From: Tannerellaceae bacterium
GTDB lineage: Bacteria; Bacteroidota; Bacteroidia; Bacteroidales; Tannerellaceae
NCBI GenBank assembly: GCA_031264865.1
Contig: JAISDJ010000340.1
Location: forward strand, 1 to 32,103
Direction of reading: 5' to 3'
Length of the DNA stretch: 32,103 nucleotides
Shown: in pieces, positions 28,071-31,959 of the stretch
Layout of the letters: each line of letters begins with the position of its first letter
Position numbering within the stretch: the first letter of the stretch is position 1
Translations under genes and position numbers: made by a program
The notes under the pieces: generated by a model
What the model was told of the DNA's origin: nothing
Database searches by the model: none
Seen by the model: the letters and a program-made list of their open reading frames with translations, nothing else

Positions 28071-28640
28071 TAAATCCGACAAATATTTTAAAAGTCGCAT
28101 AATGTTTAAACCAAAGGTAAAAGTAACGGGAGTGGCATAAAAATCAGTTCCGTCTCCAAATGTATTTCTTTCAGGATCAAGCCCCTCATATTCTTTATGC
28201 CATAACAGGGTAAAGAGGTTTTGTGCATTGGCGTAAATATATATTTTATCCAATTTCAGACGTGAAATCAAACTTTGAGAAAGGGTGTATCCTATTTGCA
28301 AATTTTTCAGCTTCAAAAAGTCAATTCGGTGCACCCAATAAGACGACTCTTGCTGATCTCATGAATTGTCGAATTTCAAACCGGGAATTTTTGAGTCAAG
28401 GTTTTCAGGCATGCGTTTTTCCACTTTGTCGAAATGGTTAGGTATTCGTATGACATACGTGTGTAGTCACTTTGGGTATATGCGTGAGTTTTCCCTATTC
28501 CCTGAAATAAAAGAATTAAATCGAAACCTTTATACCGGAAACCGGCAGATAAGCCATAGGTAAGTTTTGGTACCTTAATAAATCGAATGGTTTCAAAAGC
28601 GGTTATATTTCCCTGTTTTAGAAGAAGTAAAATATCTGCT
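28059..28640 (-). pseudogene. C-terminal remnant of a SusC/RagA TonB-dependent receptor
   Basis: Three pieces in two frames match the C terminus of SusC-type receptors in the right order. From about 28640: 'GNITAFETIRFIKVPKLTYGLSAGFRYKGFDLILLFQGIGK'. After a frameshift near an A run at about 28420: 'PENLDSKIPGLKFDN'. After an in-frame TGA (28359-28361): 'QQESSYWVHRIDFLKLKNLQIGYTL...NAQNLFTLLWHKEYEGLDPERN...PVTFTFGLNIM'. About 190 residues of a roughly 1000-residue porin remain, with no plug domain and no SusD partner. The final 91-codon segment (28059-28334) is still open. It is a relic of a lost polysaccharide-utilisation locus. Confidence 0.88.
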
Positions 28641-28736
28641 CTTTATTTTATTGATTTTTGAAATGATATTGGCATATTATCTTTACTTTATCCTTAAATT
28701 TAACAATTCGAGATCATTTTTATTGGTATTCTTTTT

Positions 28737-28744
28737 TACCTTTG
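28737..28744 (+). promoter_or_regulatory. -7 element of the ThiC-like/SGNH unit
   Basis: TACCTTTG, a full match to the -7 consensus, 21 bases before the ATG at 28766. The leader is too short for a TPP riboswitch. Confidence 0.6.
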
Positions 28745-28765: not shown

Positions 28766-30265
28766 ATGGGGGATAAGAGGAAGATGCGTATTGTCTATCC
28801 ATCATCTGAGAAGGTGTATGTTTTTGGAGAGGTTAATAAGATAAAAGTAGGGATGCGCAGAATTAAACAAACGGATACTATAACTATTGATAGTAAAGGA
28901 GGGAAAATCCGGAAGAAAAATAATCCGGTTATTGTTTATGATACAAGCGGCCCTTTCTCCGATTCCCAGGTAATCGTTGAAAACGGGAAGGGTATACCTC
29001 GTTTTCGTGAGGAATGGTATCTCCGGAGAAAAGATATAATCAAATTAGATGCTCTTTCATCTGTATATTGTGTTAAGCCGGGAAAGAACCTGACACAAAT
29101 GTATTATGCGAAAAGGCGCGTCATTACTCCGGAAATGGAATATGTTGCCATTCGTGAGAATCAGCAAATTGAAGATCTGGGGTTAAAATCGTATATTACT
29201 CCCGACTTTGTCCGTAAAGAAATAGCGGCCGGACGGGCTATTATTCCTTCTAATATTAATCATCCTGAAGCGGAGCCAATGATTATCGGGCAAAAGTTTT
29301 TGGTAAAAGTAAATACAACGATCAACAATTCTTTGCCGCCGCATATGATGGAGGAAGAAATTGAAAAAATAGCTTGGTGTTGTAAATGGGGGAGTGATAC
29401 CTTAATGGATTTATCAACCGGAGAGAATATGCACGAAAGTCGGGAACGGCTTATCCGAAATTGTCCTATTCCGTTTGGGACAGTTCCTTTATATCAGGCA
29501 TTAGATAAGGTGGGTGGAAGTATTGAAGATTTAAACTGGGCTATTTATCGCGATACATTAATTGAACAGGCCGAACAAGGGGTTGATATCTTTACCATTC
29601 ACGCAGCGATACTTCAGGAGCATATAGACCAGGCAGTTTTGAGGCTAAACGGGATTGTATCGCATGGCGGTTCCATCCTGAGCAAATGGATGCAAATGCA
29701 TAAAGAAGAGAATTTCTTGTTTACGCATTTTGTGGAGATATGTGAAATAGCAAAAACGTATGATGTGATTATTTCAATAGGAGACGGCCTTCGCCCGGGC
29801 GCTGTATATGACGCAAATGATACTGCCCAGATGGCCGAATTACGGGTAATGGGGAAACTGATAAATATAGCATGGAAACAGTTTGTTCAGGTAATGACGG
29901 AAAGCTCCGGCCATCTGCCCATGAATAAAATCCTCGACAATGTAAAGGAGCGGCAATATGCCTGCCATAACGCCCCCCTTTATTCGTATGGCCCCATGAT
30001 AACCGATGCGGCCTGCGGATACGAATATATAGCATCGGCCATAGGAGCTGCCCAGATTGCTTGGCAGGGAACGTCTTTAATCAGTTGTGTTATTCCCGAA
30101 CGGCATTGTATCATTGCAAATAAAATAGCAGCGCACGCAGCCGATTTAGCTAAAGGCCATCCAGGAGCACAAGTCCGCGATAATGCATTAAGTAAAGCCC
30201 GTTTTGAGTTGAGAAGAAAAGATGCACAAAATCTTTCATTCGATCCGGAACGAGCTGCTAAATAG
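28766..30265 (+). CDS. thiC: Divergent ThiC-family protein lacking the Fe-S cluster motif
   Basis: The protein has 499 residues and aligns over most of ThiC: N-terminal domain 'YPSSEKVYVFGEVNKIKVGMRRI', 'NPVIVYDTSGPFSDSQVIVENGKGIPRFREEW', 'VITPEMEYVAIREN', 'DLSTGENMHESRERLIRNCPIPFGTVPLYQAL', 'GDGLRPGAVYDAND', 'KIAAHAADLAKGHPGAQ'. The metal-binding histidines appear kept (His383, His447). It stops at 'LSFDPERAAK', just before the region where ThiC carries the C-x2-C-x4-C that binds the [4Fe-4S] cluster, and no such motif follows in any frame. Other family-invariant blocks differ: NIGNS is TINNS (185-189), EGPGHVPMH is ESSGHLPMN (379-387), and about 13 residues are absent after His447. Canonical HMP-phosphate synthesis is therefore unlikely. 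It may be a new function or a decaying paralogue. Confidence 0.88.
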   Translation: MGDKRKMRIVYPSSEKVYVFGEVNKIKVGMRRIKQTDTITIDSKGGKIRKKNNPVIVYDTSGPFSDSQVIVENGKGIPRFREEWYLRRKDIIKLDALSSVYCVKPGKNLTQMYYAKRRVITPEMEYVAIRENQQIEDLGLKSYITPDFVRKEIAAGRAIIPSNINHPEAEPMIIGQKFLVKVNTTINNSLPPHMMEEEIEKIAWCCKWGSDTLMDLSTGENMHESRERLIRNCPIPFGTVPLYQALDKVGGSIEDLNWAIYRDTLIEQAEQGVDIFTIHAAILQEHIDQAVLRLNGIVSHGGSILSKWMQMHKEENFLFTHFVEICEIAKTYDVIISIGDGLRPGAVYDANDTAQMAELRVMGKLINIAWKQFVQVMTESSGHLPMNKILDNVKERQYACHNAPLYSYGPMITDAACGYEYIASAIGAAQIAWQGTSLISCVIPERHCIIANKIAAHAADLAKGHPGAQVRDNALSKARFELRRKDAQNLSFDPERAAK

Positions 30266-30291: not shown

Positions 30292-31959
30292 ATGAGAAAA
30301 GTTGGTGTATCTGTTTTATTTTGTTTGGTTTGTTTATTCGTAAATGCTCAATGGGTATGGAATAATCCTTTAGAAGCAAAGTTCCCGGTAATACAAAATC
30401 AAGGTTGGACGGAAGAGATAGGAAAGACATTTACCCGTCTTCCTCAAAGCGCACAAAATCAGGTACCCAAAGCTGTCTGGGATCTCTCTCGCCATTCCAC
30501 CGGTTTAGCGATTCATTTTTATTCTAATGCACCGGAGATACAAGTTCGTTATGCCGTAAATGGTTCCTTCGAGATGAATCATATGCCCGCCACCAGTACG
30601 TCGGGAGTTGACTTATATCGTATAGATAGTGATGGCGTTTGGAATGTCTGTTCGGGTAAATCTGATTTTGGGGATACGATTGTTTACCATTATAATCATA
30701 TAAAGAAAGATAGATACCATGATTATGGATATGAATACCGGCTTTATCTGCCATTATATAATAGTGTAAAATGGCTGGAAGTCGGTGTACCGGATGGTTT
30801 TTCTTTTGAATTTATTCCGGTTTTATTGGAGAAGCCAATCGTAGTATACGGTACCTCGATCGTTCAGGTGGCTTGCGTCACCAGCCCGGCTTTAGCGTGG
30901 ACTACAATTGTAGAGCGGTCATTAGATTATCCGTTAATTAATTTAGGATTTTCGGGCAGCGCTAAGTTAGAGAAAGAAGTAGTAGCGTATATGAGCGATA
31001 TCGATGCTTCCCTGTATGTGTTAGATTGCATGTCTGATTTATTTGAGTATGATAAAGAAGAGGTTGTAAAGCGTATTGTTGATGGAGTAAAACTGATACG
31101 TACAAAAAGCGCTGCCCCTGTTCTGTTAATCAAACATGCCGGAAATAGTAACGCCCAAACCGATTCTGTGCATTTTACCGGTAATAGCGATATAAATGAA
31201 GCATCCCTTTATGCCTATAAATTACTACAACAAGAAAATATTCCGGATATACATTATATATGTGGAGACGAATTCGTAGAGCAGAAAATACGGAAAATAT
31301 TAAAGATGGAAAAAGGTATAAGTACAACAACTATTCCTGTTACACAACGAAGAGAACCTAATAATTACGAATGGAAAAAGCGCCATTATGATGTATTGGC
31401 TCTAAATAAAAGTAATCCTCCGAAGTCTCTGATCATAGGCAATTCCATCACTCATTTCTGGGGAGGCGAACCCAAAGGCCCGCGACAAAATAGTATAAAT
31501 AGTTGGACAAAATATATGGAACCCCGAGGCTATCGAAATTTAGGGTATGGCTGGGATAGAATAGAAAACGTACTCTGGCGTATTTATCATGGTGAATTAG
31601 ACGGTTTCGAAACGGAAAAAATCATACTAATGATTGGTACAAACAATATGAAAATCAGTACAGATAACGATATTATTGATGGACTTCGCTTTTTATTGGC
31701 AGCTATACATGAAAGACAATCTAAGGCAATAATTAAAGTAATAGGTATTCTTCCCAGGAGAGATAATGAACAATGGGTTAATGAAATTAATAAACAAATC
31801 CAGCAGTTAGTTCAAGAAGAAGGATACATATATCAGAATGCCGGAAACCTGTTGTTAGATGCGGATGGAAAAATTGATGAGTCTTTATTTAGCGATGGTT
31901 TACATCCTAATGGGAAAGGATATACATTGTTAGGCGCTTTTATTTCCGATTTCGATTAG
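30292..31959 (+). CDS. Secreted tandem SGNH hydrolase
   Basis: The protein has 555 residues. Signal peptide MRKVGVSVLFCLVCLFVNAQ. Residues about 25-180 form the jelly-roll domain often found before SGNH esterases ('TSTSGVDLYRID', GxDLY type). Residues about 182-330 are a first SGNH-like domain (GTSI, Ser189; 'LINLGFSGSAKLE'), but the usual Asp-x-x-His at its end is absent and the oxyanion Asn position reads Asp (CMSD), so it looks degenerate. Residues about 375-555 form a second, complete SGNH domain: GNSI (Ser385), 'MIGTNNM' (448-453) and SDGLHPN (Asp535, His538). It is probably a periplasmic or surface carbohydrate esterase or lipase. It starts 26 bp after the ThiC-like gene and is likely cotranscribed with it. 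Confidence 0.87.
   Translation: MRKVGVSVLFCLVCLFVNAQWVWNNPLEAKFPVIQNQGWTEEIGKTFTRLPQSAQNQVPKAVWDLSRHSTGLAIHFYSNAPEIQVRYAVNGSFEMNHMPATSTSGVDLYRIDSDGVWNVCSGKSDFGDTIVYHYNHIKKDRYHDYGYEYRLYLPLYNSVKWLEVGVPDGFSFEFIPVLLEKPIVVYGTSIVQVACVTSPALAWTTIVERSLDYPLINLGFSGSAKLEKEVVAYMSDIDASLYVLDCMSDLFEYDKEEVVKRIVDGVKLIRTKSAAPVLLIKHAGNSNAQTDSVHFTGNSDINEASLYAYKLLQQENIPDIHYICGDEFVEQKIRKILKMEKGISTTTIPVTQRREPNNYEWKKRHYDVLALNKSNPPKSLIIGNSITHFWGGEPKGPRQNSINSWTKYMEPRGYRNLGYGWDRIENVLWRIYHGELDGFETEKIILMIGTNNMKISTDNDIIDGLRFLLAAIHERQSKAIIKVIGILPRRDNEQWVNEINKQIQQLVQEEGYIYQNAGNLLLDADGKIDESLFSDGLHPNGKGYTLLGAFISDFD

Follow-up and report, generated by a model that had tools for sequence, protein, structure and literature searches.

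The ThiC-like gene and its locus

The window, i.e., the whole stretch of 32,103 nucleotides of DNA from a gut-type Tannerellaceae bacterium analysed here, contains on its forward strand, at positions 28766 to 30265, an open reading frame of 499 codons plus a stop codon encoding a 499-aa homologue of the vitamin B1 enzyme ThiC. Homology extends over the N-terminal domain and the barrel of ThiC, with matches to the ThiC-associated domain (PF13667; 89.2 bits), the Pfam family ThiC_Rad_SAM (PF01964; 429.5 bits), ThiC proteins of solved structure (3epm, E 1.3e-149; 4s25, E 8e-132) and the NCBI ThiC equivalog NF006763 (661.7 bits for a cut-off of 650). The match to PF01964 stops at position 392 of the 420 in the profile, short of the cluster motif, and the C-x2-C-x4-C motif, which is C-terminal in ThiC, is absent from the protein. 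The original prediction of an intact, 499-codon ThiC-like gene ending before this motif is thus confirmed by the frame, the Pfam matches and the solved ThiC proteins. A frame-shifted tail hidden downstream of the gene was considered and rejected: 26 nt separate its stop codon from the ATG of an esterase gene, and since the missing tail of about 40 aa cannot fit this gap, there is no displaced tail between the two genes. The features of the locus are as follows:

28737 to 28744, forward strand: TACCTTTG, a fit to the presumed Bacteroidales -7 box TAnnTTTG, 21 nt upstream of the ATG of the window gene
28796 to 29038, forward strand: ThiC-associated N-terminal domain (PF13667), aa 11-91, from Pfam
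29081 to 29311, forward strand: aa 106-182, where conservation within the clade is highest (at least 95% identity at 52% of sites, n = 39)
29663 to 29665, forward strand: H300, aligned with AtThiC R343 (SAM N7 contact) and replacing it
29792 to 29794, forward strand: R343 of the window protein, aligned with AtThiC R386 (phosphate ligand), kept
29912 to 29914, forward strand: H383 of the window protein, aligned with AtThiC H426 (first metal ligand), kept
30101 to 30106, forward strand: R446-H447, where AtThiC E489 (SAM ribose contact) is replaced by Arg and the second metal His is kept by alignment, followed by an 11-residue deletion
30107 to 30205, forward strand: aa 448-480, conserved C-terminal helical region, the protein ending 19 residues further
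30292 to 31959, forward strand: esterase with GxDLY and Lipase_GDSL domains and a signal-like start, beginning 26 nt after the window gene

Residue roles, here and below, are those given in the available part of PMC4389238, AtThiC numbering being transferred through the 4s25 alignment. Compared with ThiC, several blocks of the window protein are changed, namely NIGNS to TINNS, EGPGHVPMH to ESSGHLPMN and SRGGS to SHGGS, and the alignment opens an 11-residue gap directly after the second metal His. The changes originally noted in NIGNS, EGPGHVPMH and the segment after this His are therefore all seen, with the qualification that the final H to N replacement also occurs in the canonical thiC of several relatives (EGPGHVPMN).

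The box TAnnTTTG, which we take to be the Bacteroidales -7 promoter consensus, is found upstream of the ATG in all six same-genus upstream regions printed, i.e., those of the window, of four other genomes and of a second copy in the window's genome. Downstream, a relative of the esterase follows the cluster-less gene in all six loci of the window's genus (hereafter g1), and the esterase is probably co-transcribed with the window gene. As no Rfam match reaches the gathering score in the window, it holds no TPP riboswitch, in agreement with the original prediction, which gives an esterase as the neighbour and no adjacent riboswitch. On the minus strand, at 28080-28700 between hisG and the ThiC-like gene, a decayed fragment with several stops resembles, by eye, the C-terminal end of a SusC/RagA-type outer-membrane receptor. 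A search of the window's genome for a second, canonical thiC, as had been advised, found none but uncovered a partial cluster-less copy (L002, G000:C279:2-1108), 88% identical over aa 1-369 and cut by the contig end. HisD and the esterase are present there in single copy, L002 being either a paralogue or a stray contig. L002 adjoins genes for an ECF sigma factor and for FecR.

A single cluster-less clade in the Tannerellaceae

Two surveys were carried out, where ThiC matches were obtained (i) in 57 of 100 relatives at E 1e-30, every match sequence being read, and (ii) in 81 of 99 genomes of the family at least 80% complete at E 1e-60, the sequences being read as well. Cluster-less proteins of one kind, orthologues sharing the loss of the motif, were found in 39 genomes from seven Tannerellaceae genera, namely g12 (20 carriers), g1 (6), g9 (4), g5 (3), g15 (3), g11 (2) and g3 (1), including a genome in a single contig (G027). 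None of the 39 proteins keeps any of the three cluster cysteines, and all are encoded by single full-length open frames; in-frame stops suspected in G056, G138, G143 and G145 were dismissed as they lie outside the genes, the frames of which are full length (525, 523, 505 and 545 codons, respectively). After the RDxA motif, the tail is 20-40 aa long in 36 of the 38 cluster-less proteins measured, and 58 aa long without Cys in the remaining two, as compared with 56-81 aa in 52 of 57 canonical proteins measured. Among the genomes sampled from other families of the order, all 15 with a ThiC match carry the cysteine motif, in two cases as C-x2-C-x3-C. This spacing is seen in two short ThiC homologues, 41% identical, from G071 (L052, CTMCGNLC) and G083 (L053, CTMCGELC); these diverged rows were dropped from some canonical counts, and later sets keep three of the 15 ThiC genes of other families (L028, L054 and L058). 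The cut sequences L002 and L048 (canonical-type) were assigned to no group, L121 stands outside the 39, and one partial relative from a scan of viral contigs was left out of the analysis. Twelve of 18 g1 genomes, many of them incomplete, yielded no such gene, which is thus probably dispensable in this genus.

The ThiC family tree proposed in the original prediction places the cluster-less proteins on one branch. When 65 of the 99 rows are used and the tail columns excluded, this branch gathers the 30 cluster-less rows included (of 39) with an ultrafast bootstrap of 95 and an SH-aLRT of 89, is recovered in 96% of 200 bootstrap trees and has the ThiC of other families on its opposite side. A first tree, with the tail columns included, had likewise placed all 22 cluster-less proteins then known on one branch (98/94). 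With all 99 rows and no tail columns, two changes are needed, i.e., the cluster-less clade and a separate loss in L121. The latter (G113) belongs to the canonical lineage; its motif CTMCGPNFC has become CTMYRPNFH, so that two cluster cysteines have been lost independently and, by appearance, recently. The g15 branch is very long and the tree alone could misplace it, but its position is backed by a convergent patatin-family neighbour common to its three loci and to each of the seven g5 and g9 loci (ten of ten; assigned by Pfam in one locus and by BLAST cluster in the rest). Of the cluster-less proteins, the two from g11 branch closest to the canonical side. They retain the tail but read STMNDTNFF where canonical proteins read CTMCGPNFC, and so appear intermediate, all three cysteines being replaced while the tail is present.

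Branches are longer in the cluster-less clade than in canonical ThiC, and evolution is faster. Nonetheless, dN/dS ratios (NG86) range from 0.050 to 0.216 in 18 of 22 cluster-less pairs, the four others being saturated, and reach at most 0.276 with YN00; the three pairs including the window gene give 0.105-0.160, and canonical pairs 0.011-0.120 (8 of 13 estimable). The cluster-less clade is under purifying selection, less constrained than canonical ThiC, and neither a broken frame nor a dN/dS near 1, as would be expected of a pseudogene under relaxed selection, was observed. Taken together with the residues described below, the data show a single Tannerellaceae clade of ThiC-derived proteins in which the [4Fe-4S] cysteines are absent and most contacts to SAM and imidazole lost, and which evolve under purifying selection.

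The neighbours of the cluster-less genes differ by genus and point to no pathway, and none is common to all the loci compared (2 of the 39, L095 and L104, could not be placed). Directly upstream of the cluster-less gene, six loci from g5, g9 and a single g1 genome (L024, L025, L026, L027, L029 and L039) have between one and three tRNA genes with the same score. No TPP riboswitch was detected at the 33 of 39 cluster-less loci scanned (L034, L037, L099, L105, L107 and L110 falling outside the scan), a weak comparison as canonical loci have one in 3 of 20 cases and the flanks mostly span only 1-1.5 kb in both groups of loci. As such, no genomic link to thiamine synthesis, be it a thi operon or a TPP riboswitch, was found for the cluster-less gene.

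Functional sites lost and kept

The cluster cysteines and each of the sites counted in this paragraph are kept in all 57 canonical rows. Among the 39 cluster-less proteins, the SAM contacts R343, E489, L259 and G230 are kept in 16, 14, 22 and 4, respectively, and the nearby L493 in 3. On the imidazole side, 7 of the 39 keep D383 (N3 contact), 4 keep Y449 (stacking on the 5-amino group) and 17 keep N228 (ribose contact), so that the aminoimidazole ribotide-like ligand suggested in the original prediction is not supported for the clade. The phosphate site, on the contrary, is mainly kept, with H322 and S342 in 36 proteins each, R386 in 35, Y286 in 29 and also E422 in 37; the losses amount to 4 for R386, 2 for E422, 3 for H322 (in g15), 3 for S342 (in g5) and 10 for Y286. 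Regarding the metal ligands, the first His (H426) is kept in 36 of 39 and lost in 3, and the second (H490) is kept in 6. Retention of both metal His and of the RPG motif, as originally noted, holds for the window protein (H383 and H447) but, for the second His, not across the clade.

Overall, mean retention is 0.28 for the ten SAM, imidazole and H490 sites and 0.89 for the six phosphate, E422 and H426 sites, compared with 0.63 for 136 canonical-invariant barrel sites. A genus-weighted permutation, with sites treated as independent, returns 0.0001 for the loss in the first set and a marginal 0.032 for the retention in the phosphate set. Replacements are directional: 30 of the 39 proteins have F at Y449, 25 have S or A at G344 and 21 have S at D383, the last site being occupied by S, C or N in most members of the clade. 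The window protein is a mild case with 11 of the 21 listed residues kept: all four AIR phosphate ligands (Y286, H322, S342 and R386) are present, its S299 (AtThiC S342) directly preceding H300; D383 and Y449 are kept, N228 is not, and among R343, E489, L259, G230 and the nearby L493 only L259 is retained.

Along the protein, the proportion of sites at least 95% identical reaches 52% in aa 106-182 and 37% in aa 448-499 against 10-20% elsewhere. The latter region may correspond to the helix bundle that the available part of PMC4389238 describes at the dimer interface of ThiC. An AlphaFold2 model built from three aligned sequences has a mean pLDDT of only 31.7, and the fold and the dimer therefore rest on homology.

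Thiamine in the hosts and the likely role of the protein

Of the 99 family genomes, 38 are carriers, where the canonical ThiC motif pattern is absent from 28 and present in 10 (including G142). Neither ThiG (E 1e-20) nor ThiE/TenI (E 1e-10) was found in 18 of the 28, among which 13 combine a completeness of 90% or more with a contamination of 5% or less and nine reach a completeness of at least 98%; the other 10 have a ThiE relative, and four of them ThiG also. For comparison, 15 of the 18 family genomes without any ThiC match lack ThiG and ThiE, and 42 of the 43 with a ThiC match but no cluster-less member have ThiE; the 18 carriers resemble the former and not the latter. A match had to reach E 1e-20 to count as ThiG, and the partial ones seen at 1e-3 (20-37 bits, many above the Pfam cut-off of 23 bits; G000 and G007 among many) were taken for other barrel proteins. 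In G054 and G139, pieces of ThiG lie at contig ends, and a canonical thiC could be missing from these assemblies. Thiamine pyrophosphokinase is present in all 11 carriers without canonical ThiC of a 60-genome sample, although it is no marker of carriers as it occurs in 17 of 18 g1 genomes and, among carriers with canonical ThiC, in G019 and not in G035. Considering both the lack of ThiG and ThiE in 18 of 28 and this kinase in 11 of 11, carriers without the canonical motif probably import thiamine. In the window's genome, the kinase adjoins what we take to be a PnuT-like transporter and a TonB-type receptor, and another contig bears a salvage set with ThiE and genes presumably resembling ThiM, ThiD and TenA.

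The window protein is very unlikely to make HMP-P, a radical SAM reaction could not plausibly be carried out by a cluster-less protein alone, and many hosts could not use HMP-P even if it were made. In three carriers (G128, G144 and G145; L129, L130 and L131), a thi operon without thiC (ThiE/TenI, ThiG and ThiH-/ThiF-like genes) coexists with the cluster-less gene, L129 being a short contig with masked stretches, and one could ask whether the cluster-less protein stands in for ThiC there; this idea is weakened by G129, G137 and G147, which have ThiG yet no ThiC match of either kind. Canonical genomes without ThiG may use THI4, as reported for a Parabacteroides in the available part of PMC8454699.

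On these grounds, we consider it probable (about 0.6), judging from homology and residue retention, that the cluster-less protein descends from ThiC as a dimeric barrel, that its phosphate pocket has been remodelled, and that it works either as a binding or regulatory protein or as a non-radical enzyme. The homodimeric (beta/alpha)8 barrel would be retained together with its phosphate-binding end, i.e., the His, Ser, Arg and Glu residues and one former metal His, and the ring-binding side would have been rebuilt through the prevalent replacements at D383, Y449 and G344. A phosphorylated metabolite is the most likely ligand. The cysteines were probably lost first, from proteins that had the tail, as in g11, and the tail itself disappeared afterwards. 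More tentatively, and at somewhat under even odds, a radical SAM enzyme would have become a non-radical protein by losing the cysteines, then the cluster domain, the SAM site and the second metal ligand, and would have gained a new phosphorylated ligand and a non-thiamine function kept family-wide, with g11 as a living intermediate. The repurposed ThiC fold put forward in the original prediction is well supported by the shared loss, the purifying selection and the 28 of 38 carriers without canonical motif.

One branch of the preferred reading is that of a sensor or regulator, which would bind the phosphorylated metabolite and act through protein contacts without catalysis. With phosphate ligands mostly kept and with aa 106-182 and the C-terminal helical region as the best conserved parts, this role appears possible, at about one chance in three; it sits less easily with neighbourhoods varying by genus and the lack of a conserved partner gene, and the present data do not separate it from a non-radical enzyme. 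A dying relic, i.e., a thiC left in thiamine auxotrophs and slowly decaying without function, would account for the longer branches, the dN/dS higher than in canonical ThiC and the 12 of 18 g1 genomes in which the gene was not found. It is nevertheless unlikely in view of the low dN/dS in 18 of 22 pairs, the frames, open in all 39 genes from seven genera, the two strongly conserved regions and the conserved -7 box in g1.

The remaining explanations are far less probable. A regulatory or inactive heterodimer partner of canonical ThiC would fit the retained C-terminal helical region and the 10 of 38 carriers also showing the canonical motif, but 28 show none, and the canonical copies read in g3, g9 and g12 carriers have a different position in the tree and ThiE and ThiG as neighbours, which looks like a later regain; we regard it as highly improbable. 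Slightly less credible still is a radical enzyme with its cluster or adenosylcobalamin domain on a separate chain, by analogy with glutamate mutase (adenosylcobalamin), the catalytic subunit of which is related to ThiC in barrel and dimer arrangement and has its cofactor domain on a separate chain, according to the available part of PMC4389238: the deoxyadenosyl contacts common to ThiC and the mutase are often lost in the clade (besides G230, L259, E489 and L493 with the counts given above, P494 is kept in 16 of 39), which disfavours this explanation. An assembly or sequencing artefact, conceivable as the draft genome is fragmented into 376 contigs and has a contamination of 6.86, is refuted by the orthologues, the same loss being found in 39 genomes including the single-contig one, and in two public records that are probably G013 and G016 themselves.

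In the portions of the open-licence literature available, no report of a cluster-less ThiC or of a ThiC pseudoenzyme was found, which is weak evidence of novelty. In terms of annotation, 6 of the 11 cluster-less proteins scanned (of 39) pass the NF006763 cut-off and would therefore be misnamed ThiC. This is a trap for pathway prediction, where ThiC serves as a signature gene (PMC6593275, available part) and auxotrophs could thus be credited with HMP synthesis. From an evolutionary standpoint, one family offers a series that leads from a radical SAM enzyme to a descendant free of the cluster and includes the canonical sisters, what appears to be an intermediate and the end state.

Compared with known systems, the clade resembles ThiC, the radical SAM phosphomethylpyrimidine (HMP-P) synthase (PF01964; 3epm, 4s25-4s29), by homology along the protein, the N-terminal domain and most phosphate ligands, and differs from it by the absence of the cluster motif, of most SAM and imidazole contacts and, in most members, of the second metal His. 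BzaA, BzaB and BzaF are ThiC paralogues for B12 lower ligands, i.e., cases of a ThiC copy turned to another task, but they keep the cluster, unlike the window protein, which has no cluster motif. Against the BzaB-type model (TIGR04386), the window protein scores 289.3 bits and ten other cluster-less proteins 178.8-372.8 bits, all below the cut-off of 700. With pseudoenzymes in general, the clade would share a fold kept and selected after the loss of catalytic residues.
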